From Deltaproteobacteria bacterium YD0425bin50 (GTDB lineage: Bacteria; Desulfobacterota; Desulfobacteria; Desulfobacterales; YD0425bin50), in the NCBI GenBank assembly GCA_002753105.1, contig PDZT01000001.1:1-64000 (forward strand): a stretch of DNA of 64,000 nt, read 5' to 3'. The stretch's first letter is position 1. Every line of letters starts with the position of its first letter. A program made the translations under genes and the position numbers. The notes under the pieces were generated by a model. That model saw only the letters and a program-made list of their open reading frames with translations, had not been told where the DNA came from and did no database searches. Below are positions 9,261 to 28,593 of the stretch, in pieces.

Positions 9261-10346
9261 TTATAAATAGCAATCTGTCATAGAGCGAGTAATCGTGAAC
9301 GCTTCTTCGCTCACCTGAGACCATCCCATATATTTATTACGAAATAACATGTATGAATCATATATTTTTTTAGATAAAGGATTTTTGGATGCCATTTCTG
9401 GTATTAACTTGTGAGTCAGTTTGGCTAAAATGATTAGAACACGATCTGGAAAACGTTTAATGGTCACTTTATGTTGTTTAACAAGTGTGATTAAGGCGTT
9501 TGAATTATGATTTGTATATAGTGACCATATATGATTATACATGGATAGTGCTGCATGACAAATAATTTGTTTTAGATCATTGGGCAAAGAATCATATGCA
9601 GCTTTATGCATGAACAAATCGAATAATATACCGGGTTCATGCCAACCGGGCCAATAATAGAATTCTGCTCCTTGATGAAGTCCCAAGGCAAGGTCTTCAA
9701 ATGGCCCAAACCCACTACACGCATCTATTTTTTTCGATTGAAGACCTTCAAGTAAATTATCTGAGGACAAATTTATTCGCGTTGCTCCAAGTTGTTTTAA
9801 TATCTCACCGCCAATACCAGAGAATCTGATCTTTAAGCCTTTAAAATCATCAACAGAATGAATTTCAGTTGTAAACCATCCGCCCATTTGCGTACCCGTA
9901 TTCCCCAAAGGGAACACTTTTAAATTAAAATGACTATACACATCATCTAATAACTGCATGCCCCCATTAAATTGCAGCCATGTCATCAGTTCATGTGCAT
10001 TTAAACCAAACGGAAAATGTGAACAGAAAAGAAAAGCATCATGTTTGTTTATCCAAAAAAAGGGACATCCTATTCCAATTTCAATTTTTCCAGATGAAAC
10101 AGCGTCAAAAGGATCATCTTTTATGGATTCTGGAGGATAACACGTAATTCGAATACGACCACAAGACATCTGTTCTATACGTTGTGATAGTGAATCCACC
10201 ACTGTAGCCATAATTGAATTACTTTTTGGAAAAGAACTAATCAATTTCCAATCATATCGATCTGTTGCGTATGCAGATAGCGTTTGAGGAAGCATTGCTG
10301 CAGCAACAGATTGAGATGCTGTTTTTATAAACTTACGCCTATTCAT
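9261..10346 (-). CDS. TRAP-type (DctP family) solute-binding protein with Tat-like signal
   Basis: 361 residues. The N-terminus has a twin-arginine type signal (NRRKFIK followed by a weakly hydrophobic stretch, LSAYA). DctP features follow: KLISSFPKSN near the start, FKGLKIRFSGIGG with the Arg that binds carboxylate ligands, ATRINLSSDNLLEGLQSKKIDA, and WHEPGILFDLFMH. No DctQ/DctM membrane genes are nearby, so it may work with a remote transporter or as a periplasmic sensor partner for the adjacent histidine kinase. Its ATG overlaps the stop of the wax-ester synthase gene by 4 bp (ATGA), implying translational coupling. Confidence 0.88.
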   Translation of the reverse strand: MNRRKFIKTASQSVAAAMLPQTLSAYATDRYDWKLISSFPKSNSIMATVVDSLSQRIEQMSCGRIRITCYPPESIKDDPFDAVSSGKIEIGIGCPFFWINKHDAFLFCSHFPFGLNAHELMTWLQFNGGMQLLDDVYSHFNLKVFPLGNTGTQMGGWFTTEIHSVDDFKGLKIRFSGIGGEILKQLGATRINLSSDNLLEGLQSKKIDACSGFGPFEDLALGLHQGAEFYYWPGWHEPGILFDLFMHKAAYDSLPNDLKQIICHAALSMYNHIWSLYTNHNSNALITLVKQHKVTIKRFPDRVLIILAKLTHKLIPEMASKNPLSKKIYDSYMLFRNKYMGWSQVSEEAFTITRSMTDCYL

Positions 10347-11932
10347 GCTGCCTTATCACTATTAATTTCCTCAGCGATACCATCTTGAATCGTATCTCTA
10401 ATAGAATGTTCAGAATCATCAAAAGGTGGGAATAATTCATCTTCTTTTTGAGCACGTACTTTTGCTTTGAGTTCTTGAAAGCGGTCATTGATTACCAAAG
10501 GCTCCTGTACAATTTTCCCCGTCTGTACCAGCGTCCAAAATTCATCAAACTCTTGTTTGAAAAAGTCAAGAAGAGCTTGAGGATCCGGGACAAGATGCTC
10601 ATCTGATGCAATGCCAAGTGTTACTTCTCCGTTATAACTAATAATACTAATTCCTAAACCCACGCTTCCCGTTGTGGGAACCCAAAACATCATATTACAG
10701 ACCTGTTTACCTGCAAAATAGATGGCTTGTCTTGGACCCGGAACATTGGTTAAAACGGCTGTGGCTTTATTGGCTAAAAAATGCGCTGAATGCTTAGCAA
10801 GACGTTCTGGAATCAGACCCAGTAAACTAAGTCCTGCATATGCGGCCATCACATCTGATGACTCTTTCAAATGATCCATACGCCGCTTCACTTCTTTAAG
10901 ACGCATCACAGGGTCTTCAATATTCACAGGTAATTGTAGATAAATTAAACTGAAATTATTTCCCAACTTAAATTCTTTTCCCGGTTTGCGCACATTCACA
11001 GGAATAGCTACTTTGAGTTCACGATCACATAAAGGATCATTTTTAGACTGCAAATACCTGCGCAGGGCACCCGTAACCACTCCAATCAATACATCATTGA
11101 CTGTTCCATTTACGGATTGTCCAATAGTTTTAATCATAGTCACAGGAATTGGATATGACCACGCCGCACATTTTCTGACTTTAACTTCTCCCTTAAAAGA
11201 AGAATCTGTATCTGATGGTGATATAATATGCTTAGTTAACGTAGCAGATGTTTCAAGCCCAATACGAATAAGCTTCATAGCTTGTTCTATAGCTTCATTT
11301 AAGTTTGGAATCTGTTCTTTAATGTTGGCTATCCACGTATTTCCTTCACTTTTTATATCATTTAATTTTTTTTGTATTTGCTGGGTATATTGTGAAAATG
11401 AAAGCGATTGGGGTTTTGTTTTTTTTATCTTTTTTTTTGGATGAGTTGGTTCATCACTAAAATTTGCATCAGGTTCTGTATCAGTCAAAGAAAGAAGAAC
11501 ATGAATTAAGGCAATACCATCAGCAATACAGTGATGAATACGTGTAAACAATGCGGATCCTGATCCATAATTGTCTATTACCCATATTTTCCATAACGGC
11601 TTGGATTCATCTAAAGGTTGAGATAAAAGATCACTCACCATAAGTTGTAATGCGGATTTGTCCCCGGGTGATGGCAGTGCTATACGACATAAGTGAGATC
11701 GTATATCAAAATTTTTGTCATCTTCCCAAACCGGTAATCCAACTCCAGTTATTGGCTTGACAACTTTTTTTCGAAATCGATCAAATATTAAAAATCGTTT
11801 TTCTAAAATTTTGCGAACACGTTCAAAATCAAGAGGTTCATCAAAGTAAAGGACGCCAGAAATGATCATTAAATTCGTCGGTTGGTCCATATGAAACCAA
11901 AAATTATCAATTTTTGACATAATTTGTGTCAT
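10343..11932 (-). CDS. Wax ester synthase / diacylglycerol acyltransferase (WS/DGAT)
   Basis: 529 residues. Condenses acyl-CoA with fatty alcohols or diacylglycerol to make wax esters or triacylglycerol for storage. The catalytic HHxxxDG motif is present as HHCIADG (~135-141). The N-terminus (MSKIDNFWFHMDQPTNLM) and the C-terminal TNVPGPRQAIYFAG and VGLGISIISYNGE segments fit the TIGR02946 family. A Lys/Pro-rich insertion follows the acceptor region (~175-195). It has an ATGA overlap with the following TRAP-type binding protein gene, an unusual pairing. Confidence 0.93.
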   Translation of the reverse strand: MTQIMSKIDNFWFHMDQPTNLMIISGVLYFDEPLDFERVRKILEKRFLIFDRFRKKVVKPITGVGLPVWEDDKNFDIRSHLCRIALPSPGDKSALQLMVSDLLSQPLDESKPLWKIWVIDNYGSGSALFTRIHHCIADGIALIHVLLSLTDTEPDANFSDEPTHPKKKIKKTKPQSLSFSQYTQQIQKKLNDIKSEGNTWIANIKEQIPNLNEAIEQAMKLIRIGLETSATLTKHIISPSDTDSSFKGEVKVRKCAAWSYPIPVTMIKTIGQSVNGTVNDVLIGVVTGALRRYLQSKNDPLCDRELKVAIPVNVRKPGKEFKLGNNFSLIYLQLPVNIEDPVMRLKEVKRRMDHLKESSDVMAAYAGLSLLGLIPERLAKHSAHFLANKATAVLTNVPGPRQAIYFAGKQVCNMMFWVPTTGSVGLGISIISYNGEVTLGIASDEHLVPDPQALLDFFKQEFDEFWTLVQTGKIVQEPLVINDRFQELKAKVRAQKEDELFPPFDDSEHSIRDTIQDGIAEEINSDKAA

Positions 11933-12785: not shown

Positions 12786-14219
12786 ATGGAAACGAAACGA
12801 GGATATGAAGTAGGCCAACATAATGATTCCTCCACAAAAAAAAATGATGTTTTTGTGCTTGACTTAACCCAATTACCTTCAGACTATTTTATAAAAAAAT
12901 CATTTCAACATGTTCATGTTAACCTTACAAAAAAAGAATCATCGCACATAGAAAATGATCAACTACCTAAAAATTTATCAGAATTATCTTCTGATGAACA
13001 GATTGATGAATTATTAAATCATGTAGATGAAGATGCTGTTGACCTATTGGAATCGATAGAAAAAAAGACGGTTTTTGTTTCACCTGATATTGAAATTTCT
13101 GAATTATTTCGTGATGTCGAGATTCTCAAAACTGAAGATATGACCGGAATCGTAAAAGAAACTGTTTTTCCTGAAGCTGATGTTGATGAATCCCCTTTGT
13201 TTGACCATAAAGATGAACCCCAAAAAGATACGATAGAAGAAAATGTGATTGATCTGATTCTTCCGGTTATTAAAAAAAACACAGATCAGCAATTTCAAAA
13301 GAATAATCATAATCCACAAAGGAATTTTCTAAAAAATATTTTAAGTAAGGATGAACACATCGTTAATCTACCTCTGTTAGATGATCAAGAAATGAACTTG
13401 GATGAATCCTCTAAGCCATCGGAAGGTGTAAATGAAGAGGAAGATATCATTGATCTGGACTTGATTGACGATAAAGAGATGAATCCGGAAGAATCCTCTA
13501 AGCCATCGGAAGGTGTAAATGAAGAGGAAGATATCATTGATCTGGACTTGATTGACGATAAAGAGATGAACTCGGATGAATCCTCTAAGCCATCGGAAGG
13601 TGTAAATGAAGAGGAAGATATCATTGATCTGAACTTGATTGACGATAAAGAGATGAATTCGGATAAATCCTCTAAGCCATCAGGAGATGCATATGAAGAG
13701 GAAGATATCCTTGATTTAAGTTTGATTGATGATAAAGAAATGAACATGGATAAATCGTCTAAAGAAGAAGATGATATTCTTGAGTTGAGCTTGATAAATG
13801 ATGAACAGTTTGAAGAGGATTCCTTAACTGAAGTCGAAAATATAATTGATCTGAGTTTAGTATCTGAAGACGAAAAAAGTGATCCTATGTTGGATGCAAC
13901 AATAAAAACAATTGATCCAACTGAAGATATGGAAATCATTGATCTTAGTAAACAGACAATGGATATAGAAAACGATTCAGCCACAGAAGACAGTGATGAT
14001 TCATTCATTGGACGTCCAAGAACAGTCATTGATATGCAACAGGTGAGTATAGATGATACAGAAAAATTAGAAAAGAATATCTCTCTTTCTCAAGAAACAA
14101 TTGAACGTGTTCTTGAGCGAGTCGTTCGTGAACGTTTTATGGAAAAAATAAATCACATTCTTGATCAGGTGATTGAAAAAGTTGTACGTGATGAAATCGC
14201 AAAAATAAAAAAAGCATAG
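12786..14219 (+). CDS. Acidic, repeat-rich protein with PopZ-like C-terminal helices, upstream of valS
   Basis: 477 residues. Most of the protein is extremely acidic and predicted disordered. Residues ~206-321 contain four 29-aa tandem repeats (core SSKPSEGVNEEEDIIDL) plus a degenerate fifth, and related [IV]-[IV]-D-L-[SD]-L motifs continue beyond. The last ~45 residues switch to amphipathic helix (ERVLERVVRERFMEKINHIL, then a second helix ending EIAKIKK), like the C-terminal oligomerisation helices of PopZ/DUF2497. In alphaproteobacteria popZ-type genes often lie beside valS, as here. I infer a polar-organising or scaffold role; homology is unproven. Confidence 0.7.
   Translation: METKRGYEVGQHNDSSTKKNDVFVLDLTQLPSDYFIKKSFQHVHVNLTKKESSHIENDQLPKNLSELSSDEQIDELLNHVDEDAVDLLESIEKKTVFVSPDIEISELFRDVEILKTEDMTGIVKETVFPEADVDESPLFDHKDEPQKDTIEENVIDLILPVIKKNTDQQFQKNNHNPQRNFLKNILSKDEHIVNLPLLDDQEMNLDESSKPSEGVNEEEDIIDLDLIDDKEMNPEESSKPSEGVNEEEDIIDLDLIDDKEMNSDESSKPSEGVNEEEDIIDLNLIDDKEMNSDKSSKPSGDAYEEEDILDLSLIDDKEMNMDKSSKEEDDILELSLINDEQFEEDSLTEVENIIDLSLVSEDEKSDPMLDATIKTIDPTEDMEIIDLSKQTMDIENDSATEDSDDSFIGRPRTVIDMQQVSIDDTEKLEKNISLSQETIERVLERVVRERFMEKINHILDQVIEKVVRDEIAKIKKA
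13401..13748 (+). repeat. 87-bp tandem repeat (4 units) inside the acidic-protein gene
   Basis: Units start at 13401, 13488, 13575 and 13662, each 87 bp (29 codons), with a degenerate fifth from 13749. Units 1-3 are nearly identical at DNA level, so they arose recently and could vary in number by recombination without breaking the frame. Confidence 0.9.
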
Positions 14220-17279: not shown

Positions 17280-18245
17280 ATGAGGAAGTTATATCAAAAA
17301 ATTAAAGATCTATTTAAAAACAATACGACATTTTTTATATTAAGTGTTCTTTTCTTGTTTTTTATATTCGTCTATTTTTTAAATAACATTGTGATTAGTA
17401 TAAAATCTGGTCAAGCAGGGGTTTTATATAAACGCTTTTTTGGCGGTACTGTTGTTGACAAGGTTTATTATGAAGGAATTAAGCTCATTTTTCCATGGGA
17501 TATCATGTACATCTATAATATAAGAATTCAAGAAATAGCTGATGAATTCGATGTGTTAACCACAGATGGTTTAAAAATTCGTTTATATATTTCTATACGA
17601 TATTACCCTGATGCCAGACTATTAGGAGTTCTCCATCAAAAAGTAGGGCAGAACTATGTTAATACTATTGTAGTCCCGGAAATTGAAAATGTGTTGAGGG
17701 TTTTAATTGGTAGGCTTAATGCTGAAGAGGTTTACACTACCAAACGGGCGATTATTGAAAAATCTTTAAATGAGGCTATTGAAAAAATTTCAAGACGTTA
17801 TGTAATAGTAGATAATGTTATTATAAAAAAAATGGAGCTTCCTGCTAAGATAGAACGGGCTATTCAAGATAAAATTGAACAAAAACATATGGCTGACTCT
17901 TATAAATATATAATTGAACAGGAACAGCAGGAAATTGAAAGAAAAAATCTTGAAGCAACAGGATTGATGAAGTTTGATAATGCTCTTTCGGACCGAGTAT
18001 TACAATGGATGGCGATTCAGGCAACATTGGAGGTAGCTAAATCCGAAAATGCAAAAGTTGTTATCATTGGTAATGGTAAAAACGGGCTTCCTATTATTGG
18101 CAATCTTCCCCTTGAAGGTTTTGATGATACGAGTAATCAATTTTTAAAACCGAATAAGACTGAACCTTCTAAAACACAACCTTCTAAAACACAAAGTCCA
18201 GACAATAATAAAACGAATGCTGAAACTCAACAATCTGAAAAATAA
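17280..18245 (+). CDS. SPFH/prohibitin (stomatin-like) membrane protein
   Basis: 321 residues. One N-terminal membrane segment (~16-39, very hydrophobic) is followed by a band-7/SPFH domain (~40-240: SGQAGVLYKRFFGGTV, VLTTDGLKIRLYISIRYYPD, RYVIVDNVIIKKMELP), a charged coiled coil (IEQEQQEIERKNLEATG), and a low-complexity tail with PSKTQ repeats. SPFH proteins form large oligomeric membrane rings and scaffold or regulate membrane proteins; eukaryotic stomatins modulate ion channels. It is first in the operon and overlaps the next gene by 29 bp. A role in organising the downstream channel proteins is inferred. Confidence 0.85.
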   Translation: MRKLYQKIKDLFKNNTTFFILSVLFLFFIFVYFLNNIVISIKSGQAGVLYKRFFGGTVVDKVYYEGIKLIFPWDIMYIYNIRIQEIADEFDVLTTDGLKIRLYISIRYYPDARLLGVLHQKVGQNYVNTIVVPEIENVLRVLIGRLNAEEVYTTKRAIIEKSLNEAIEKISRRYVIVDNVIIKKMELPAKIERAIQDKIEQKHMADSYKYIIEQEQQEIERKNLEATGLMKFDNALSDRVLQWMAIQATLEVAKSENAKVVIIGNGKNGLPIIGNLPLEGFDDTSNQFLKPNKTEPSKTQPSKTQSPDNNKTNAETQQSEK

Positions 18246-20958
18246 GAGCTATATCTTAGCTTTTGTCTTTATATTTGCCTTTTCATGTTCTCCTAATGAC
18301 GCTATCGAAAAAAGGGTTCAAGTAGCTTCAGAATCAACGGGTGACATCACCATAGGTGTTGTAGGAACATCAATATTACACAATTACTTTTTAGATGGTG
18401 TGAATTTAGCTATTGAAGAAATCAATCAGAGAGGAGGAGTGTTAGGTAAAAAAATAAAAACTCTTATATATGATGATCAAGGGGATCAAAGAGAAGCACA
18501 AAAGATAGCTGTAAGACTTGCCAAAAATTATAAAGTCATTGCTGTTGTGGGGCATGGATTATCTGATGCAGCTATTCCTGCAGCAGTAATTTATGAAAAT
18601 TCGGGTATTATATATATTTCTTATAGAGCAACAGATCCTCTGCTTACACGTTACAGTAGTGGTTTTACATTAAGAAATATCCCTAATGATGATGAGTTAG
18701 CCCGTCAATCTGCTGAATTTTCTTATAATTACGGGGGTAGAAAAATGCTGATGTTCTATGATAGACAGGCAAATTATAGTTATTTTGGAGAGGTTTTTAA
18801 AGCTAGTGCGGATAACATAGGGATTGATATTATTACCACACGTTCATATTTTAGTTCAGATTATGATTTCAATGATCTTATTTCATCTGTAACAGGCTAT
18901 GATTATGATTCAATTTTTATTTCGGGTGGTCTCCCTTCATCTGCACTATTGATCAAGCAATTAAGAGATAAGGGCATTAAAGTACCCATTATTGGAGGGT
19001 ATGGTTTAGATTCTCTTGAGCTTTGGACTATAGCAGGCAAAGCATCAGAATTTACCGCTGTTCCTACAGTATTTAATCCAAATTATCCTTTAAAGGATGT
19101 ATCTGATTTTGTAAAACGATTTAAAGTAAAATTCGGATTTGTTCCTGATACATGGGCAGCTCAAGGGTATGATGCTATATCTTTACTTGCGTATGGTATT
19201 GAAAGAGCTGGGTCCACTGTCCCAAAAAATATAACGAATACGTTACGTTTTATCGAAAATTGGAATGGGGTTACAGGTTCATATGCATTCACGCCGGATG
19301 GGGATATCAAGGGTAAGAAGATATTTTTCAAAACCATGGATAATGGTAAATTTGTATTCATTAAAGAAAAAGAAAAGGAAGAACCGCCCAAAATTTTTGA
19401 TTATATAGAAGATTATACCTTAAGGATTCCATTGGAAGGCGGAATATCAACAATAGATCCGGGCCTTACTGCTGAAAGTAATTCAATTGAGTTAACTGAA
19501 CAGTTGTTTCTTGGATTAACTTCATTAGAACCCGAAACTTATCAGCCAGTTCCAGAGATTGCAACAGATTGGACAGTCAGCTCAGATGGGAGAAACTATG
19601 AATTTCATATGCGTAAAGACATTCAATGGACAAATGGAGAGCCTGTAACTGCCCATGATATTGTCTGGGCAATTCAACGTAATATTACCCCTAAAACAAA
19701 CGCCCCCTATGTCAATATTCTGTTTGTTTTAAAGAATGCCATAGCCATAAATAAGGGTGAAATAAAAGATGTATCTCAAATTGGCGTGAATGCAAAAGAT
19801 GACTATACTGTTGAGTTTATTCTTGAGAACCCGGTGAGTTATTTCCCTACCCTTGTAGGTTTATGGGTTTATCGCCCATTACCTCGCGCTATTATCGAAA
19901 AATATGGTGATAAATGGACAGAACTTGATCATATCCAAAGCAATGGTTCCTATAAGCTTGCGTTAAGTGATAAAAATATTGTAATCCTCAGAAAGAATCC
20001 TTTATATTATAATGCAAAAAAAGTCTCTATTCCTGAAGTTCGTTATTATCTTATTCCGCAGGTCTCTATGGGATTCGTAATGTATCAGAATAACGAAATC
20101 GATATCATTGGGGGGAGCTACCTAAAAATGCCTCTAAATGAAATTCCTAACATTAAGCAGAATCCATATCTAAGTAAACAATATAAAAAGTTAACTCAAT
20201 TTTCTACCTATTCATATGCATTTAATACAAAACGCCCTCCAACTGACAATGTACTTGTTCGTAAAGCAATTTCTGCAGCTATTGATCGGCCTCTTTTAAT
20301 TGAAGTTATAACAATGGGGGGCGAGATGCCAGCTAAGACATATACCACACCGCCCATCGTAGGATCAGTTGATCCATCAGATAACATTGGGATTGGCTTT
20401 GCGCCATTTGATGCAAAAAAATGGTTAGCAGAAGCAGGATATCCTGAAGGAAAAGGGTTCCCTGAAATTACACTACTATTTAATAAATCAGAGACGCATC
20501 AGAGAATTGCTCAAGCAATTTCAGACTCTTTAAAGCACTATTTAAATATTAATGTCCGGATTATTGAGAAAGATTGGGATGAATATATGAGCATCATACT
20601 AGACTCGAATCTTACCAATAACCCGCATATTTTCAAAGCATGCTGGAATGGTGATTACCCTGATGCAAGTAATTGGCTTAGCCTTTTTAATCCATTAAAA
20701 CCTTCTTTTAATACTGGCTGGGAGAATAATGAATATGTTCAACTTATCGCTCAGGCTGAAAAAGAAAGTGATCCTAAACAAAGAGAAAAATATTATAACA
20801 GATTAGAAAAAATTTTATGTCAAGAACAAGCCATTGCAATACCACTTTATTTTGAATCAGCTCATTGTCTTGTCAAACCAAGAGTGAAAGGATGGTATTA
20901 TATGGCTATGGGAGGCCAACATATACGTAACTGGAGCTTAGGCGAAGAAACGGAATGA
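18217..20958 (+). CDS. Double solute-binding lipoprotein: type I (LivJ-like) fused to SBP_bac_5 (OppA-like)
   Basis: 913 residues. A lipoprotein signal (hydrophobic 12-22, Cys ~24 in AFSC) precedes a type I periplasmic binding domain at ~45-385 (GVVGTSILHNYFLDGVNLAI, EINQRGGVLGKKIKTLIYDD, VVGHGLSDAAIPAA). A complete family 5 oligopeptide-binding domain follows at ~400-905 (LEGGISTIDPGL, DWTVSSDGRNYEFHMRKDI, WTNGEPVTAHDIVWA, WNGDYPDASNWL). These two folds belong to different transport families and are normally separate. No permease or ATPase is adjacent. Its stop overlaps the next start (ATGA). Likely membrane-anchored in the periplasm as a two-ligand receptor; ligands unknown. Confidence 0.9.
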   Translation: MLKLNNLKNKSYILAFVFIFAFSCSPNDAIEKRVQVASESTGDITIGVVGTSILHNYFLDGVNLAIEEINQRGGVLGKKIKTLIYDDQGDQREAQKIAVRLAKNYKVIAVVGHGLSDAAIPAAVIYENSGIIYISYRATDPLLTRYSSGFTLRNIPNDDELARQSAEFSYNYGGRKMLMFYDRQANYSYFGEVFKASADNIGIDIITTRSYFSSDYDFNDLISSVTGYDYDSIFISGGLPSSALLIKQLRDKGIKVPIIGGYGLDSLELWTIAGKASEFTAVPTVFNPNYPLKDVSDFVKRFKVKFGFVPDTWAAQGYDAISLLAYGIERAGSTVPKNITNTLRFIENWNGVTGSYAFTPDGDIKGKKIFFKTMDNGKFVFIKEKEKEEPPKIFDYIEDYTLRIPLEGGISTIDPGLTAESNSIELTEQLFLGLTSLEPETYQPVPEIATDWTVSSDGRNYEFHMRKDIQWTNGEPVTAHDIVWAIQRNITPKTNAPYVNILFVLKNAIAINKGEIKDVSQIGVNAKDDYTVEFILENPVSYFPTLVGLWVYRPLPRAIIEKYGDKWTELDHIQSNGSYKLALSDKNIVILRKNPLYYNAKKVSIPEVRYYLIPQVSMGFVMYQNNEIDIIGGSYLKMPLNEIPNIKQNPYLSKQYKKLTQFSTYSYAFNTKRPPTDNVLVRKAISAAIDRPLLIEVITMGGEMPAKTYTTPPIVGSVDPSDNIGIGFAPFDAKKWLAEAGYPEGKGFPEITLLFNKSETHQRIAQAISDSLKHYLNINVRIIEKDWDEYMSIILDSNLTNNPHIFKACWNGDYPDASNWLSLFNPLKPSFNTGWENNEYVQLIAQAEKESDPKQREKYYNRLEKILCQEQAIAIPLYFESAHCLVKPRVKGWYYMAMGGQHIRNWSLGEETE

Positions 20959-23078
20959 AAAAATTTTTTTTATTAACCATCATTGCCGGTTTATTATTAT
21001 TGTTAATCAAAGGGATATTTGTTTTTATATCGTCAGATTTGTCCACCCAAAAGGAAGTTATATATATTGCAGTTGTAGCTCCTACAAGCGGAAAAGATAA
21101 GCATGAGGGCGATGCAATGATTAAGGGGATCAGCCTTTATATCGATAAAATAAACAGTCAAAAAACGAAGGGATTAGAAAATAAGGAGATAAAATTACTG
21201 ATTTTTGATGATAAAAATACCAAAGCAAATGCTTTAAAGGTCGCCTATAAAATTAATGAAGACAATAAAACGGTTTTAGTGCTTGGACATTATTATAATT
21301 CAACATCGTTAGCCGCGGGTGATTTTTATAGACAGTCAGGTATTCCTGTAATCACAGCTTCGGCAACATCTGAGCAAGTTAGTACTGGAAATGAGTGGTA
21401 TTTTCGTACTATCCCCGGAGATGATTTAATTAATAACTTTATGATCAACTATATTACTAAATTTCAAAAACAATCTGAGATAAATATTATATTTGATAAA
21501 GATGAATACTCGTCATTTGTTAAGGGTTTCGAGGAAATGTCTAGTAATTATGGGATCAAGATTAAGCATAAGTGGAGTTTTGATAAAGGAGAATCTGAAC
21601 ACCATGTCTCTGAAGAACTGAATAAAATTATTAGAGAATTGAAAGTTAAAGACGATATTGCACCCATCTTGTGTATTACTCGTCCTGAGGAGGGAGCAAA
21701 AATAATTACATCTATAAAATTTCCTGATGCAAAGTTTGTTTTTATGGGACATTATTCATTTTCAACGCCAAGTTTTATTGATGTGTTAAAAGATTATCCT
21801 CAAGAAAAAATCTTTCATGGGTATTATTCAGATAATATATATGCTATCTCTCCATTTTTATTTGATCTGTCCAGCGAAAAGGCGTTTCACTTCAGAAAAG
21901 AATATTTAAAAAGGTATAATGAAGAACCTTCATGGATTTCAGCATGTTATTATGATGCAGCCCAGACTGCTGTTGAAGCAATTAAAAGGGCTGAATTTGA
22001 GAGCACAGAGAATATGCGTGAAAACAGAAGAAAGGTAAAAGATTCTTTATCAAGGTTTAATAGTGAAGAAAATTCAATAGAAGGTGTAACTCACAATATT
22101 TTTTTTGATGCAAATGGTAACTCTCAATCCTCAATTTTTCTTGGATATTGGCAAAATCATCAGTTTTTCGCAGAATATGACCAGTATCAAATTTTTCAGG
22201 AAACGGGCTATTTAAAAAAGAAACCCCGTTCTTTTAAACAGGATATAGGGGATATGGTCATCAAAATGGATGAGTTAACACTTATAAAGACGCAGATTGT
22301 ATATACAGGCATGTATATTAATAAAATCAGCAAGATAGATTTTATTAACAATACCTATCTCATTGATTTTTATCTATGGTTTAGTTTTAGTAAAGATATT
22401 GATGATAAAAATATTCTGTTTTATAATGCAATACAACCCATTAAATTAAAAGATCCGATTAAAATTGAGGTATCAGAAAAAAATATTATCACACAGACTT
22501 ATCGTATAAAAGCTGAATTCAACAACAATTTTACCGTCTTGCAAAATCCTCTTGGCGAACAAATGTTAAAAATACAGTTTCATCATAAGACTAAATCTAT
22601 AAATAAATTAATGTATATCCCTGATAAAAAACAATGCATGTCTCGAACAGGAATCAAGGGTATAAATATTCCGCATGGATGGACTATTAATGATATGGAT
22701 TTTTATCAAGATACTATAAATATTAACTTAATGCCAGATTTACCTTCTATAAAAGTTTCTAGTTTTAATACAACTATCTGGCTTGATAATAAAAAAAATA
22801 TAATTAACTTCTCACTTAAAAATTTTGTCGTAGCTTTTTTTATGATAATTATTTTACATATAGTCTTTTTTATACCTTCTAGTCATTTTATTAGCCGATC
22901 AATCATAATTATAACGATACTATCTATAACATTGATATATGATTTTATGTTTTTAGAAGATGCTATTCGGGAATTTATACTCGTGAAATATGAAATGAAT
23001 GTTTTATATATATTGTCTTTTATTACGGGTGTTATAACCTTAGCTACTTGGATATTGAAGAAAAAAAAAGGTAACTAA
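20955..23078 (+). CDS. Type I solute-binding domain fused to a pLGIC-like channel region, M4 missing
   Basis: 707 residues. N-terminal signal/anchor (5-26). LivJ-like type I binding domain at ~34-415 (VVAPTSGKDKHEGDAMIKG, LIFDDKNTKANALKVA, GHYYNSTSLAAGDFYRQSGI). Residues ~445-610 look like the extracellular domain of pentameric ligand-gated channels: VYTGMYINKISKID, then YLIDFYLWFSF, then a Pro-loop-like FTVLQNPLGEQMLKI, then GWTINDMDFYQD. Membrane segments: ~620-641 (M1), 646-666 (M2), 683-701 (M3). It ends in KKKKGN with no M4. Overlaps its upstream neighbour by 4 bp and is followed 1 bp later by a paralogue. Channel assignment is from pattern, not a search. Confidence 0.75.
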   Translation: MKKFFLLTIIAGLLLLLIKGIFVFISSDLSTQKEVIYIAVVAPTSGKDKHEGDAMIKGISLYIDKINSQKTKGLENKEIKLLIFDDKNTKANALKVAYKINEDNKTVLVLGHYYNSTSLAAGDFYRQSGIPVITASATSEQVSTGNEWYFRTIPGDDLINNFMINYITKFQKQSEINIIFDKDEYSSFVKGFEEMSSNYGIKIKHKWSFDKGESEHHVSEELNKIIRELKVKDDIAPILCITRPEEGAKIITSIKFPDAKFVFMGHYSFSTPSFIDVLKDYPQEKIFHGYYSDNIYAISPFLFDLSSEKAFHFRKEYLKRYNEEPSWISACYYDAAQTAVEAIKRAEFESTENMRENRRKVKDSLSRFNSEENSIEGVTHNIFFDANGNSQSSIFLGYWQNHQFFAEYDQYQIFQETGYLKKKPRSFKQDIGDMVIKMDELTLIKTQIVYTGMYINKISKIDFINNTYLIDFYLWFSFSKDIDDKNILFYNAIQPIKLKDPIKIEVSEKNIITQTYRIKAEFNNNFTVLQNPLGEQMLKIQFHHKTKSINKLMYIPDKKQCMSRTGIKGINIPHGWTINDMDFYQDTININLMPDLPSIKVSSFNTTIWLDNKKNIINFSLKNFVVAFFMIIILHIVFFIPSSHFISRSIIIITILSITLIYDFMFLEDAIREFILVKYEMNVLYILSFITGVITLATWILKKKKGN

Positions 23079-23079
23079 C

Positions 23080-25272
23080 ATGAAGAAAATACTCATCATT
23101 CTTTTTCCAATTTTAGTTATCGCTCTATTCTATCCAGAAATAAAAAGAGTCATAAAGAAAGAAAGTATCTATATCGCTGTTATCGGAAAAGAGAATGATA
23201 TTTATCGAAAAGCTATTCGGTTGTATGTAGATAACATAAACTCACAAGGGGGAGTAGAGGGTAGAGATATAGAATTAATATATTATGATGATAAACAAGA
23301 TAAGGATAGTGCACAAGATGTAGCTCAAAGCATAGCAGAAGCAAATAAGGTTATGGTTGTAATAGGACATGAAACAAATCTAACATCATTTGTTACAAGT
23401 ACAATTTATAAAAAAAATGAAATACCGGTAATTATGCCTGCTTCAACCTTAGCGGAATTAGGCACGAATAATGAATGGTCTTTCAGAGTTATTCCTAACA
23501 ATAGTATTGAAGCTTCAATTATTGCTAATTATATTAAAAAAGAATTAAAATATCCTTATGCTAGCTGTATATATAATCCAAAATATCCTTACAGTACATC
23601 GTTACTAGAAAAGTTTGAAAAATCTTGTGAAAAACTTGGACTTGAGATTAAAAATAAATGGTTTTTTCAAAACGATGATCAATTAGTAAAGGTCATCGAC
23701 CGAATAAACTCAACAGAGAATATTGGAATACTATTCCCATCTGTTTTTTTACCTGATACTATAAAAATAATTACCTCTCTAAAAGATATCGGAAAAAATA
23801 TTCCTATAATAATTATAGGAATAGATCAATTAACCCATAATTATTTTATCGATGAAATTAAAAAAAATCCAAAAGAACAAGAACAACCCGGATATTATTC
23901 AAATGGGATATATTGTATTACACCATATATTGGAGAGATAGGTAATGAGGAAACATTTAAGTTTGAAAAAGAATTCTTTGAAAAATATAAAGAAAAACCT
24001 TTATTAGCAGGTAGTTACTATGATGCCATATTGGTTGCAGTATCAGCAATAAAAAATGCAAAAATTCAGTGTAAAGAAGGTCATATTTTAGAAGATAGAA
24101 GAAAGATAAGGAATGCTTTGGTGGGGTTTTATAATGAAAAAAATTCTGTCTCAGGTGTAACCGGAAAAATTTATTTTAACGATAACAGGGATGTTAATTC
24201 CTCGATTTATATTGGAATCTGGAATAATCAGAAATTGTTACCTTCATTTTATCAATACCAGCCATTGGAAAGCATAACTGGTATTGACAATATTTTTAAA
24301 AAAACATTGGAAGGTGATATTATAACCCTAGGCAACAACAGGCTCATGAAAAAAATTGGTATAGTTTATACAGGGATTGCTATAACTGAGATTAGCGACA
24401 TAAATATACAAGAATCTACCTGTTCAGTAGAGTTTTATATCTGGTTCAGATTTCAAGGTGAGTTCGATGATACAAACATTGAATTTGCCAATTACATAAA
24501 CCCTATTCAGTTGGGTTCCCCAATTGCAGAAAATAAGGAAAATGATGTTACTACAAAGGTATATCGTGTGAAGTCTGTTTTTATGTGTGACATTGATCTT
24601 TTTAACTATCCATCAGCATATATGCTACTTTCTTTAAATTTTCATCATAATAATTTAACATGGAACCAAAAAATTTATATTCCCGACCCTCTTGGACCTC
24701 CTACAAATTTGGTTTCTATCCCAAACCAAATAAATCATAAGATTAAAGGCTGGGATGTAAAAAATATATCTTCTTTTCAGGATATTATAACTAAAGACGC
24801 CTCAATTGGAACGTCTAAGCCTTTTGACTCACAACAGGGAATTAAATATTCTCAGTTTTACTCTGAAATTAAGCTGAAAAAAAAATTATCTGTATTTTTT
24901 ACCTCACATTACTATGTTATTATATGTATTTCTGTAGTCTTGATATTATTATATTTGATTTATTTCATACCTCCTCAGAGGTTTACAATACAAATTATTT
25001 TATCTTTGCTTGTTCTAATACTTAATTTAGGTTGCCATGTGATAATATTATCGGAGATGTCTGTTGATTATATGACAGCAATTGAAAAATATCTTTTTTA
25101 CACTATATATCTTCTTATTATTATAACAATGATTATATCTGTTGTAGTTTATAGACTGCATCTAAAAGGGAACTCAAAAAAAATCCTTAATCTTCTCCTT
25201 TTAGGCAAGATAGGATATCAATTGGTAGTTACGGTCAATTGTATTATTCTAATTTTTATTATATGTTTATAG
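23080..25272 (+). CDS. Type I solute-binding domain fused to a pLGIC-like channel region, four membrane helices
   Basis: 730 residues, paralogue of the preceding gene. Signal/anchor 3-18. LivJ-like domain ~30-400 (DNINSQGGVEGRDIELIYYD, VIGHETNLTSF). pLGIC-like extracellular region ~434-610: VYTGIAITEISDINI, VEFYIWFRF, Pro-loop-like DLFNYPSAYMLLSLNF, GWDVKN. Then M1 ~612-638 ending YFIPPQRF, M2 ~644-668, an M2-M3 link SVDYMTAIEKY resembling the conserved Y-x-T-x-I-D of the family, M3 ~678-700 and M4 ~710-730. This is the fuller channel of the pair. The pore helix is unusually hydrophobic. A heteromer with the upstream paralogue is plausible but inferred. Confidence 0.8.
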   Translation: MKKILIILFPILVIALFYPEIKRVIKKESIYIAVIGKENDIYRKAIRLYVDNINSQGGVEGRDIELIYYDDKQDKDSAQDVAQSIAEANKVMVVIGHETNLTSFVTSTIYKKNEIPVIMPASTLAELGTNNEWSFRVIPNNSIEASIIANYIKKELKYPYASCIYNPKYPYSTSLLEKFEKSCEKLGLEIKNKWFFQNDDQLVKVIDRINSTENIGILFPSVFLPDTIKIITSLKDIGKNIPIIIIGIDQLTHNYFIDEIKKNPKEQEQPGYYSNGIYCITPYIGEIGNEETFKFEKEFFEKYKEKPLLAGSYYDAILVAVSAIKNAKIQCKEGHILEDRRKIRNALVGFYNEKNSVSGVTGKIYFNDNRDVNSSIYIGIWNNQKLLPSFYQYQPLESITGIDNIFKKTLEGDIITLGNNRLMKKIGIVYTGIAITEISDINIQESTCSVEFYIWFRFQGEFDDTNIEFANYINPIQLGSPIAENKENDVTTKVYRVKSVFMCDIDLFNYPSAYMLLSLNFHHNNLTWNQKIYIPDPLGPPTNLVSIPNQINHKIKGWDVKNISSFQDIITKDASIGTSKPFDSQQGIKYSQFYSEIKLKKKLSVFFTSHYYVIICISVVLILLYLIYFIPPQRFTIQIILSLLVLILNLGCHVIILSEMSVDYMTAIEKYLFYTIYLLIIITMIISVVVYRLHLKGNSKKILNLLLLGKIGYQLVVTVNCIILIFIICL

Positions 25273-25507: not shown

Positions 25508-26026
25508 ATGACAGAACTCAATGAAAAAAAAACCGAAACAACTTCACAAGATACAGATTCACAAGATACAGCTTCACAGGATACTCAAATAAAATCACTG
25601 ATTAGAAATCATGTTATTGCTGCAATGGGAATTTCTCTTGTTCCAATTCCTGTACTGGATATCGTTGGAATTACAGGTGTTCAGGTGAATATGATTCGGA
25701 AATTTGCAAAAGCCTATGATGTGCCCTTTAGTGAGAGTAAGGTTAAATCAATTTTAGGAGCTTTGATTGGCGGCGGAAGCGTTTTACCTATTGGCCATGT
25801 ATTTAATTCTTTACTTAAAACAGTACCATGGGTAGGACAGACTGTTGCACCATTAGCAATGGTTACTTCATCAGGTGCAATAACTTATGCTGTTGGCAAG
25901 GTGTTTAACGCACATTTTGCATCAGGCGGAACCTTATTAACCTTTAATCCTGAAGAAGTTAAAGAATATTATGCTGAAATGTTAAAAGAAGGCAAGGATG
26001 TAGCGCAAGAATTGAAAACCGCCTAA
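25508..26026 (+). CDS. DUF697-like membrane-associated protein
   Basis: 172 residues. A Gln/Asp/Ser/Thr-rich disordered head with SQDT repeats is followed by a DUF697-like domain (NHVIAAMGISLVPIPVLDIV, GVQVNMIRKFAKAYDV, glycine-rich hydrophobic segments ~75-135). DUF697 occurs in YcjF-type and GTPase-associated membrane proteins, and its function is unsettled. AGGAGG precedes the ATG at 25508. It is the last gene before the hairpin at 26045, so it closes the channel operon. Confidence 0.75.
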   Translation: MTELNEKKTETTSQDTDSQDTASQDTQIKSLIRNHVIAAMGISLVPIPVLDIVGITGVQVNMIRKFAKAYDVPFSESKVKSILGALIGGGSVLPIGHVFNSLLKTVPWVGQTVAPLAMVTSSGAITYAVGKVFNAHFASGGTLLTFNPEEVKEYYAEMLKEGKDVAQELKTA

Positions 26027-26044
26027 ATTTTTTTAAAAAAGTCG

Positions 26045-26080
26045 AAAACAACCTCACTATTAAAAAGCCGAGGTTGTTTT
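26045..26080 (+). terminator. Intrinsic terminator closing the channel operon
   Basis: AAAACAACCTC and GAGGTTGTTTT form an 11-bp perfect stem with a 14-nt loop, 18 bp after the DUF697 stop. The 3' arm ends in TTTT and an A-run precedes the stem, as in a typical rho-independent terminator. Confidence 0.75.
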
Positions 26081-26114
26081 ATCAATTGTTATAAGCGTTT
26101 TTAAGAGGAAAAAA

Positions 26115-26924
26115 ATGCTAAAGAATGATAGATTATATCATCTTATGGAAAACCTGAATCAGCATGAACTGCTCTTTGTATTGAAAAATGGACTTGGCAT
26201 TAAAGAAAATATTTATAATAGCTATCCAAATGAAAAATTAAAAGATATCATTAGTATAGAATTAAGAAGTGCTGCCAGTAATAATTTTGCTAATTTTTTT
26301 CGTTTACAGCATGAATTCCCCTATAAGCAAATCATTATAGATGTTGCAAAGACATTATCAAATGGTATTTCTGATCGAAAAAAAGCAAGGATCCCTGACT
26401 ATTCATTAAATGACAATCATACTGAAGAAGAAATAGAAAAAGCCATTCTCAAATTGTTTGAAATAAAAACCCAAGAATGGTGGAAAGGACTTAACAAAAA
26501 AGAGAGGGAAGATATTGCGGATAAGATTGCAGATGTAATTGATCCAGAAGTAGTCAACACTGTAAATCGTTGGACGTTGATAAAATATAGAATCACAAAA
26601 GAAGTAAAGGATTCTATCTTTACTAAAGGTGTAATTATTGCAATGCTTACTCTTTCCGCTGGAGGTATAGTAGGCGCCTATGGCGGCTCTATGCTGACGC
26701 GTATTGGTTGGAATGTCGTCGTACCTACTTTAGGGTATTCTCAAGGATTAAGAATGCTGATGAGTGGGAAGTGGTTATTGGATATCATTGGCGCAGTAAC
26801 TGCTGGTATGGCTGTGTTTGTACCCAGTACTATATATTATTATGCAGATGTTAATTATCGAAAAACAATACCCACAATCGTTATGTTATTATCAAAATAT
26901 CATATGAATAAGGGATTTAGATAG
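26115..26924 (+). CDS. YaaW-like (UPF0174/DUF3944-type) protein, tentative
   Basis: 269 residues. The N-terminal helical region (MENLNQHELLFVLKNGLGI) and a middle section with EEEIEKAILKLFEIKTQEWW and LNKKEREDIADKIADVI recall the E. coli YaaW family. Toward the C-terminus are two glycine-rich hydrophobic segments (~176-200 and ~225-245), probable membrane helices. It follows the operon terminator by 35 bp with its own AAGAGG site, so it may be a read-through member or separate. No enzymatic motif is visible and the function is unknown. Confidence 0.5.
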   Translation: MLKNDRLYHLMENLNQHELLFVLKNGLGIKENIYNSYPNEKLKDIISIELRSAASNNFANFFRLQHEFPYKQIIIDVAKTLSNGISDRKKARIPDYSLNDNHTEEEIEKAILKLFEIKTQEWWKGLNKKEREDIADKIADVIDPEVVNTVNRWTLIKYRITKEVKDSIFTKGVIIAMLTLSAGGIVGAYGGSMLTRIGWNVVVPTLGYSQGLRMLMSGKWLLDIIGAVTAGMAVFVPSTIYYYADVNYRKTIPTIVMLLSKYHMNKGFR

Positions 26925-26970: not shown

Positions 26971-28593
26971 TTAGATTGGGTTATAATTTATAAATCTTCC
27001 AAATTCTAATTTTAACACTTTATCAGCTATATGAAAATAGCGATCATCGTGACTAACCGCAATTACAGTTTTTCCTTGCTTTTTCATCTCTTTTAACAAA
27101 ACCTCATAAAAATATTTTCTAAAAATTGGATCCTGATCAGCAGCCCATTCATCAAATACATATATTTGTTTATCATCAAGAAGGCTTACGATCATCGCTA
27201 TTCTTTTTCTTTGTCCTGTGGATAGACGTATTGCTGTAAATTCCCCATCAACAACGGATGTTTTTTTATCTATTTGCATAATTTTTAACAGGTTATTTAT
27301 TTTTTCATAGTCAATAATCTCGAATCCATATAACTTGTGAAACAGGTAAAAATCTTCAAATATAATTGAAAACATTTCGCGGTATTCAGGATAGCCAGAT
27401 AGTAATACAGGAAAATCATTCACCTTTATTGTTCCTGAAGCAGGATAGTATAACCCAGTGATCAGTTTGAGAAGCGTTGATTTCCCAGATCCATTACCAC
27501 CAACAATCATGATTAGTTCACCCCGGACTATTTTAAGATCAGCCGGCCCCAGTGTAAATAGAGGCATTCCGTAGTCATCAGTATAGTCAAACATGATTTT
27601 TTCTAAAGTTATTTCTTTAAATACTACAGGTACAGGTATATGTTCATTATCGGGTTCTTTAATGATGGTGTCCAGTTGTTTTTCTAACTTATACAAATTG
27701 CCGGCTGCCACATTCGCTCTAGCAATAAAGGGTATTGACTGCACAAAAATCTCTAGTGGACTAACAATAAACAGAATTGAAGATACAATCTGTACAACAA
27801 GTACATTGTACATATGTTCAAGTCTAGGAAGAATAAATATAATTACTGCAAGTAATAGATAAAAAAAAGTCTGCGAGAATAAAAAACCAACAATAAAGTT
27901 CAGTCTGGTTTTTATTTTAAGTGCTTCTGTATCAAAAGCTATTTTTTTTAAATAACTGAAATGTTCATTACTTTTTTTTTTATTTATTTTTAATTCTTTG
28001 AAACCATAGATTGTCTGATTCACCATTTCAAGAAACCTGTTTTCCTGTTTTGAGGTTTCTTGGACTTCTTCTATTACCATTCTATTAAAAAGGTAAAATA
28101 CATAAGTACCTAAGGTAATCGTGCACACAATGATAAAAAAAGCAAGTTTGGATATAAAAAATACATATAGAGTACAAAAAACCACCATGATAACGGACTG
28201 AGCTGCATTGACGAGAAGAACAACTGCCTGAGAGATAACTTCAGTATCTTGGGTAATTCGGTTGTATATATCCCCCTTGCCTGTTTTTTCAAGCAGAATA
28301 AGATCTGATTTCCTGATTTTATCTGCAAGTCTTACCCGGATTCCTTTGATCATATTTTCTGAGATTATAACTGATTTTTGTAGCGCATATTTTTTACTAA
28401 AAAGGAAAATCGCTAACATAATGAAAAACATCAAAAAATATCGAAGGTTAAGATTAGTATATGAAACAACCTTGATAGACGCATTAATAATGGCAAGAAG
28501 CAGCGCATTAGAGATTCCTGAAATCAACGTCATCAGAAATACAGGAGTTGGAGAAATCGTTGTTTCTCTTTTGAATAATTCCCAGATGTTCAT
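26971..28593 (-). CDS. Cyclic-peptide-type ABC exporter (PvdE/SyrD family), fused permease-ATPase
   Basis: 540 residues. Six membrane helices in the first ~300 residues, then a nucleotide-binding domain: Walker A GGNGSGKST, signature LSTGQRKR, Walker B IYVFDEWAADQDP, H-loop VSHDD. The FDEWAADQDP form of Walker B and the total length fit the TIGR01194 cyclic-peptide transporter family, which exports siderophore precursors or lipopeptides. No peptide synthetase or peptide precursor gene is visible nearby, so the substrate is unknown. It is separated from the VWA gene upstream by only 28 bp. Confidence 0.87.
   Translation of the reverse strand: MNIWELFKRETTISPTPVFLMTLISGISNALLLAIINASIKVVSYTNLNLRYFLMFFIMLAIFLFSKKYALQKSVIISENMIKGIRVRLADKIRKSDLILLEKTGKGDIYNRITQDTEVISQAVVLLVNAAQSVIMVVFCTLYVFFISKLAFFIIVCTITLGTYVFYLFNRMVIEEVQETSKQENRFLEMVNQTIYGFKELKINKKKSNEHFSYLKKIAFDTEALKIKTRLNFIVGFLFSQTFFYLLLAVIIFILPRLEHMYNVLVVQIVSSILFIVSPLEIFVQSIPFIARANVAAGNLYKLEKQLDTIIKEPDNEHIPVPVVFKEITLEKIMFDYTDDYGMPLFTLGPADLKIVRGELIMIVGGNGSGKSTLLKLITGLYYPASGTIKVNDFPVLLSGYPEYREMFSIIFEDFYLFHKLYGFEIIDYEKINNLLKIMQIDKKTSVVDGEFTAIRLSTGQRKRIAMIVSLLDDKQIYVFDEWAADQDPIFRKYFYEVLLKEMKKQGKTVIAVSHDDRYFHIADKVLKLEFGRFINYNPI

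Follow-up and report, generated by a model that had tools for sequence, protein, structure and literature searches.

The locus analysed here raises the question of whether two adjacent genes, each joining a solute-binding domain to a membrane-embedded C-terminal module, encode subunits of pentameric ligand-gated ion channels (pLGICs), and whether both would work in a single receptor. The genes are located in the window, i.e., the whole stretch of 64,000 nucleotides under analysis, at 20955..23078 (forward strand, 707 aa; hereafter A, or copy 1) and 23080..25272 (forward strand, 730 aa; B, or copy 2), exactly where an earlier, sequence-only reading of this DNA had placed two open reading frames. 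That reading also assigned them to the same operon, which is correct as far as it goes, but the operon is larger than claimed: it runs from 17280 onward and comprises four tightly packed genes. The first (17280..18245, forward strand) encodes an SPFH/Band_7 membrane protein of the stomatin/HflK superfamily (Pfam PF01145, 8.8e-24). The second (18217..20958, forward strand) encodes a putative lipoprotein, with FAFSC near its N-terminus, in which a type I periplasmic-binding domain (PBP-I; PF13458, 1.8e-41, residues 58-361) is fused to SBP_bac_5 (PF00496, 4.7e-70, residues 443-825). Its gene shares 29 bp with the SPFH gene and 4 bp with A; A and B are separated by a single base pair. An Rfam scan of the window gave no match.

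Both proteins carry the LivJ-like PBP-I domain that had been read from their sequences. Peripla_BP_6 (PF13458) matches residues 36-397 of A (21060..22145, forward strand; 1.3e-20) and 42-382 of B (23203..24225, forward strand; 3.7e-31), and the fold in both is related to that of branched-chain amino-acid binders, which are the solved structures nearest to the B domain (PDB 4mlc, 2.8e-17; 4gnr, 6.1e-16). When B was compared with the PDB using Foldseek, the PBP half dominated the matches (4q6b, a leucine complex, E 1.3e-21); in the viral library, the fourth match (E 5.5e-11) was a Megaviridae protein bearing the name neurotransmitter-gated ion-channel ligand binding domain protein. In the alignments, most relatives have Ser at a LivJ-type ligand position close to the presumed carboxylate site, but A and B have Asn, and the ligand may therefore differ from an amino acid.

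The relationship of the C-terminal modules is less immediately apparent. The pLGIC landmark motifs noted earlier are present (IDFYLWF/VEFYIWF, QNPLGEQMLKI/NYPSAYMLLSL and HGW/KGW in A/B, together with YMTAIEKY in B), but a Pfam scan of A and B retrieved no channel model, an NCBIfam scan matched them only to substrate-binding proteins, and a single-sequence phmmer search gave weak matches to GABA-A receptors (E 0.25). A family profile was therefore needed. Querying 58 genomes of the same order (the window's own included) with the C-terminal module of A, relatives were found in 12 of them, at 45 places, three of which are in the window's own genome; the iterated profile gathered 45 proteins, 29 short forms, which were aligned, and sixteen longer ones. 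The alignment of the short forms displays a pLGIC pattern (VYTGI..NEIS...DFYLWFRY...YPFD...L.I.FRH...GW...YS.FNA.I.I.R....K.F.P). Against the PDB, its profile matched 291 chains at E <= 1, the best 60 of which are all pLGICs (ELIC, GLIC and chimeras), with a best E-value of 1.7e-14 and an alignment spanning the Pro-loop through M4. Taken singly, 8 of the 29 members match Neur_chan_LBD (best 2.5e-5) and 2 match Neur_chan_memb (best 4.3e-7), and one relative (L105) scores above the Neur_chan_memb cut-off and matches NCBIfam LIC/LGIC_1 (1.5e-12, 1.2e-10).

As a reference, canonical bacterial pLGICs were gathered with PF02931, a search that, among 146 same-order genomes, found no match in the window's own genome. 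Using hhalign, the family aligned with these canonical sequences over its whole length (P 99.8), as well as through the extracellular domain (ECD) alone (P 98.2, E 4e-14) and the transmembrane domain (TMD) alone (P 98.9, E 2e-17), with a mismatched control at P 0.06. The pLGIC profile match anticipated by the sequence-only reading was thus missing for A and B alone against Pfam and was obtained with the 29-relative profile and hhalign. The reading was to fall if neither such a match nor a beta-sandwich plus four-helix fold could be found; both exist, as full-length B modelled by AlphaFold with 80 aligned sequences (pLDDT 90.1) consists of a PBP domain, a beta-sandwich and four helices. The homology of the A and B C-terminal modules to pLGICs is therefore strongly supported. 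As Pfam and NCBIfam are blind to the channel part of these proteins, model-based surveys of prokaryotic pLGICs would under-count the group.

Both chains run from an N-terminal PBP-I domain through an ECD into a TMD, although the TMD is complete only in B. In B, the pLGIC-type beta-sandwich covers residues 414-603 (24319..24888, forward strand; AlphaFold strands 414-601; Pro-loop NYPSAYMLL) and is followed by the AlphaFold helices M1 (611-629), M2 (635-659), M3 (662-695) and M4 (699-729), at 24910..25266 on the forward strand. B hence combines an ECD homologous to Neur_chan_LBD, the Pro-loop proline and M1-M4 homologous to Neur_chan_memb. In A, the beta-sandwich extends over about residues 440-619 (22272..22811, forward strand; alignment A1) and keeps the Pro-loop proline (QNPLGEQ); hydropathy and alignment then place M1-M3 at about residues 624-642, 649-667 and 683-701 (22812..23075, forward strand), where the chain stops. 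There is no space for an M4, because the start codon of B lies 1 bp past the A stop. Of the "3 or 4" helices previously proposed, four therefore apply to B and three to A, which we class as an M4-less paralogue rather than a complete pLGIC subunit.

In the pLGICs studied, loss of M4 usually impairs function. M4-less subunits are recurrent in this family: besides A, they comprise L093 copy 1, L098 copy 2, L112 copy 2, L101 and L148 (the last by tail divergence), and a second family member adjoins in all six cases. Given that about 34 of 82 subunits are in pairs, this would occur by chance with a probability of ~0.4% if the cases are independent, although their independence is perhaps incomplete. 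L073, located at a contig end, also seems to be devoid of M4 and is outside this count. Some relatives carry further domains after M4, either SBP_bac_1 or cadherin repeats with Peripla_BP_4, as expected if the C-terminus is periplasmic. The SBP_bac_1 forms are PBP-I::pLGIC proteins of about 1170-1255 aa (L105, L113, L117, L130, L135 and the second gene of L137), and the cadherin form is a single protein (L048:6323-9616, reverse strand) in which three repeats and Peripla_BP_4 follow the pLGIC module.

The gene order of the window recurs in other genomes of the same order, with SPFH homologues preceding the SBP_bac_5 gene at 10 further loci among those fetched and SBP_bac_5 homologues beside PBP-pLGIC genes in 16 other loci. 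With alignment A4 as the query, GTDB genomes yielded 179 relatives, and 79 loci were kept. These relatives are found in Desulfobacterales (including Desulfonema magnum), Electrothrix, SAR324, Alphaproteobacteria, Thiotrichales (Thiomargarita, Parabeggiatoa, Thioploca), Cyanobacteriota (Moorena, Okeania, Symploca, Microcoleus, Xenococcus) and others. In this set, an SBP5 gene precedes a PBP-pLGIC gene in 19 loci, and the full succession of PBP1-SBP5 and two PBP-pLGIC genes is observed in at least 10, with SPFH in or absent from the fetched stretch. Pairing is not universal, as the subunit gene stands alone in many relatives from Gammaproteobacteria and cyanobacteria. The PBP-II partner itself takes three forms: a gene of its own, a PBP-I::PBP-II fusion, or a domain added behind M4 (SBP_bac_1). 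Together, these observations strongly support the conservation of the cassette. The window's own genome contains a second cassette at G000:C408:1-3427 (L004), comprising the final part of a PBP-I::SBP5 gene as well as a third PBP-pLGIC gene that the contig end truncates. The hosts of L088-L166, simply listed, include many with a filamentous, giant or multicellular form (Desulfonema, Thiomargarita, Parabeggiatoa, Thioploca, Electrothrix, Moorena, Okeania, Symploca and Microcoleus); gene transfer among filamentous gliding bacteria has been reported (PMC6390638).

Several other genes of the window were also recorded. Just downstream of B, at 25508-26924, there are genes for a DUF697 protein, with relatives near L040, L048 and L058 too, and for a 269-aa protein without a confident family. 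They are followed on the reverse strand (26971-28593) by an ABC exporter above the NCBIfam cut-off for TIGR01194 (cyclic peptide export; 319.6 vs 286.2 bits), and exporters of similar size are located beside the cassettes of L044, L046, L049 and L068. Further upstream, a 477-aa acidic protein (12786-14219) that contains near-identical tandem repeats (EEEDIIDLDLIDDKEMN..SSKPSEGVN) and matches DUF2497 below threshold at its C-terminus (E 0.0065) precedes a valyl-tRNA synthetase-like gene, and at 9261-11932 (reverse strand) the genes of a DctP-type solute-binding protein and a wax ester synthase/DGAT overlap by 4 bp.

The evolutionary relationship between the two copies was assessed with a tree of 40 full-length proteins, the upstream gene of a pair always being called copy 1. 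B and ten other copy-2 genes branch in one clade (support 96/84), which also contains three single genes and copy 1 of the locally duplicated pair L092, whereas A and the other copy-1 genes are outside it. Because of the definition of copy 1, this clade implies that the gene order has been kept. A clade of copy-1 genes is compatible with the data but not proven (p-AU 0.30). We consider A and B, with strong support, as ancient paralogues kept in fixed order. Pairs have also originated separately in L099/L112, L106 and L092, and perhaps in L066, where the branches are long. Forcing A and B to group as a recent duplication was rejected (p-AU 0.021).

The residues of M2, numbered on ELIC, were compared over 80 relatives. 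A hydrophobic residue occupies position 9' (L/I/V/M in 70), Arg is found at 0' in 48, His at 15' in 64 and Lys or Arg at 17' in 48, while 6' is small or polar (N, G, A, S) and -1' mostly hydrophobic or small, the cation-type Glu not being among its common residues. Given the lack of a -1' Glu ring and the usual Arg at 0' of the relatives, the pore would more probably conduct anions or discriminate weakly between ions than select for cations. The M2 of A and B is unusually hydrophobic for this family where the pore lining is expected (I2', L6' and I9' in B), and conduction is therefore not assured.

The same sensor is also found on a different pore. Most of the sixteen longer relatives of the first set carry PBP-I::ECD followed by an MscS module; the MscS beta-domain was detected in all four long forms scanned (e.g., 71.8 bits against a Pfam cut-off of 20.2), two of which have a cNMP-binding domain, and nine more relatives with an MscS signature are found in Gammaproteobacteria. 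Pfam detected no MscS domain in the genes of the window. The ECD of the MscS forms aligns with that of the short forms at P 100 (37% identity) and with the canonical pLGIC ECD at P 88.7 (E 2.6e-6). The Pro-loop proline, which is absolutely conserved in pLGICs (PMC4795631), is present in 79 of 80 pLGIC-form relatives but in only 3 of 23 MscS forms; it looks maintained for pLGIC gating, since it is mostly lost where the pore is of the MscS type. The distribution fits a sensing module that moved between pLGIC and MscS-type pores, and these fused relatives suggest that a pLGIC ECD can drive another type of pore, offering a natural test of the coupling between ECD and gating. The possibility that they retain a pLGIC TMD was rejected (P < 1 for their transmembrane region). 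An MscS form could be modelled only with low confidence (pLDDT 52.5), and the model was left out of the fold search. Proteins of this PBP-I::pLGIC-ECD::MscS type, often with a C-terminal cNMP-binding domain, include L061:2379-5921, L052:5601-8996, L163, L166 and others, and are in tandem pairs at three loci (L152, L160 and L161). In L104 (324-3203 and 3382-4503), SBP5 is apparently fused to an MscS-like domain, and an MscS gene and a PBP-pLGIC gene adjoin; in L101, L103 and L116, PBP-pLGIC genes are closely preceded by long MscK-like genes.

From these results, A and B are probably paralogous subunits of one PBP-I-bearing prokaryotic pLGIC, heteropentameric and solute-gated, produced from one operon with the SPFH protein and the PBP-I::SBP_bac_5 fusion. 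The joint assembly of A and B is suggested by the old pair kept in fixed order, the repeated origin of pairs and the loss of M4 only within pairs. The solute sensed by such a heteropentamer would be small and would most likely resemble an amino acid or a peptide; it would be caught by the PBP-I domains and/or brought by the PBP-I::SBP_bac_5 protein. Closure of the PBP-I domains, which are of the Venus-flytrap type, could then be transmitted through the beta-sandwich, the Pro-loop and the M2-M3 linker to the M2-lined pore, and the resulting ion flow would serve as a sensory signal by changing the membrane potential or the ion content, with the SPFH protein probably clustering or modulating the receptor in the membrane. 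If A and B do assemble together, they would represent a prokaryotic heteromeric pLGIC and would allow the study of how heteromers and M4-dependence evolved; to our knowledge, heteromeric pLGICs are so far known from eukaryotes. We know of no characterised prokaryotic pLGIC other than homopentamers, and A and B might accordingly be separate homopentameric PBP-gated channels with different ligands that have remained neighbours since their old duplication. Many relatives being single genes, and Tasneem et al. (2004; PMC549065) inferring homopentamers for bacterial forms, would agree with this, but we regard it as unlikely given the tight linkage of ancient paralogues in an order kept over about ten loci, the further independent pairs and the M4-less subunits lying beside a second subunit in 6/6.

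It appears a little more doubtful still that the pLGIC scaffold is non-conducting and kept for its ligand-induced change of shape, signalling through the SPFH protein or serving as an accessory receptor for the neighbouring exporter. The hydrophobic M2 of A and B, the M4 lost in A, the SPFH protein in the cassette and the cyclic-peptide-export-type ABC transporter of the window, with similar exporters near several cassettes, could be explained in this way; the M2 of the wider family, however, keeps a hydrophobic 9' ring and a small or polar 6', and the gating proline is almost invariant (79/80). That A is a decaying copy, leaving B as the only working receptor, is very improbable. A has indeed diverged more than B (end branches of 1.25 and 1.05, respectively) and has no M4, but its frame is intact over 707 codons, its PBP and ECD are complete with the Pro-loop proline, it overlaps or nearly touches both neighbours, and copies without M4 are found again in other lineages, either as copy 1 (L093) or as copy 2 (L098 and L112), with a four-TM partner adjoining. 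Finally, the idea of ordinary ABC-transporter substrate-binding proteins with membrane anchors, which the sole NCBIfam matches of A and B would favour, has a negligible probability, as profile and fold both identify their C-terminal 270-310 residues as pLGIC; it is refuted by the PDB profile, hhalign and the AlphaFold model of B.

Beyond the heteropentamer proposed for the window, the wider family may form a modular system, a generalization that we propose tentatively, at somewhat less than even confidence. One PBP-I::pLGIC-ECD sensor would be mounted either on pLGIC pores, as two-subunit heteromers in which one subunit may dispense with M4, or on MscS pores that lack the pLGIC TMD, and a second binding protein would be fused or encoded by a neighbouring gene; the operon of the window would be the heteropentameric member with an SPFH partner.

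The PBP-I::pLGIC architecture as such has been known since 2004, and A and B are genuine members of it. Amino-terminal PBP-I fusions to pLGICs were reported in M. magnetotacticum and B. japonicum by Tasneem et al. (2004; PMC549065), in agreement with the sequence-only reading, which had mentioned a few such fusions, and PBP-II genes beside bacterial pLGIC genes were already noted in that work. Jaiteh et al. (2016) do not mention periplasmic-binding or fused domains. In the literature searched, mostly without subscription papers, so that absence is no proof, we found no description of the pair (as the earlier reading had supposed for the tandem), of the cassette or of the MscS swap. As far as the papers searched show, four features are therefore new: the conserved cassette of SPFH, PBP-I::SBP_bac_5 and two PBP-I::pLGIC subunits; the ancient fixed-order pair together with the repeated origin of pairs; the M4-less subunits, found only beside a second subunit; and the same PBP-I::ECD module on MscS channels.

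Compared with known systems, A and B share the amino-terminal PBP-I domain on a prokaryotic pLGIC core with the PBP-I::ART-LGIC of Tasneem et al. (2004; PMC549065), whereas paired subunits, PBP-I::SBP_bac_5, the SPFH gene, an M4-less subunit and the MscS swap are not described in the passages of that study considered here. With ELIC and GLIC they share the ECD and TMD families, the Pro-loop and, in B, M1-M4, but those channels are homopentameric, devoid of a PBP domain and encoded by a single gene, and ELIC has at -1' of M2 the Glu that is not among the common residues of the PBP-pLGIC family. DeCLIC (PMC9897478, PMC12664993), whose host is a deltaproteobacterium related to sulfate reducers, is likewise a pLGIC with an extra N-terminal domain, formed in its case by two beta-rich jelly-roll lobes and not by a PBP. 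The long-form relatives resemble MscS/MscK and cyclic-nucleotide-binding MscS channels in carrying MscS, often with a cNMP domain, and differ from them by the PBP-I::pLGIC-ECD ahead of the MscS part. Ionotropic glutamate receptors (NMDA/AMPA) also place Venus-flytrap domains outside a ligand-gated channel, but this is an analogy only, as their pore is tetrameric and unrelated to pLGICs.
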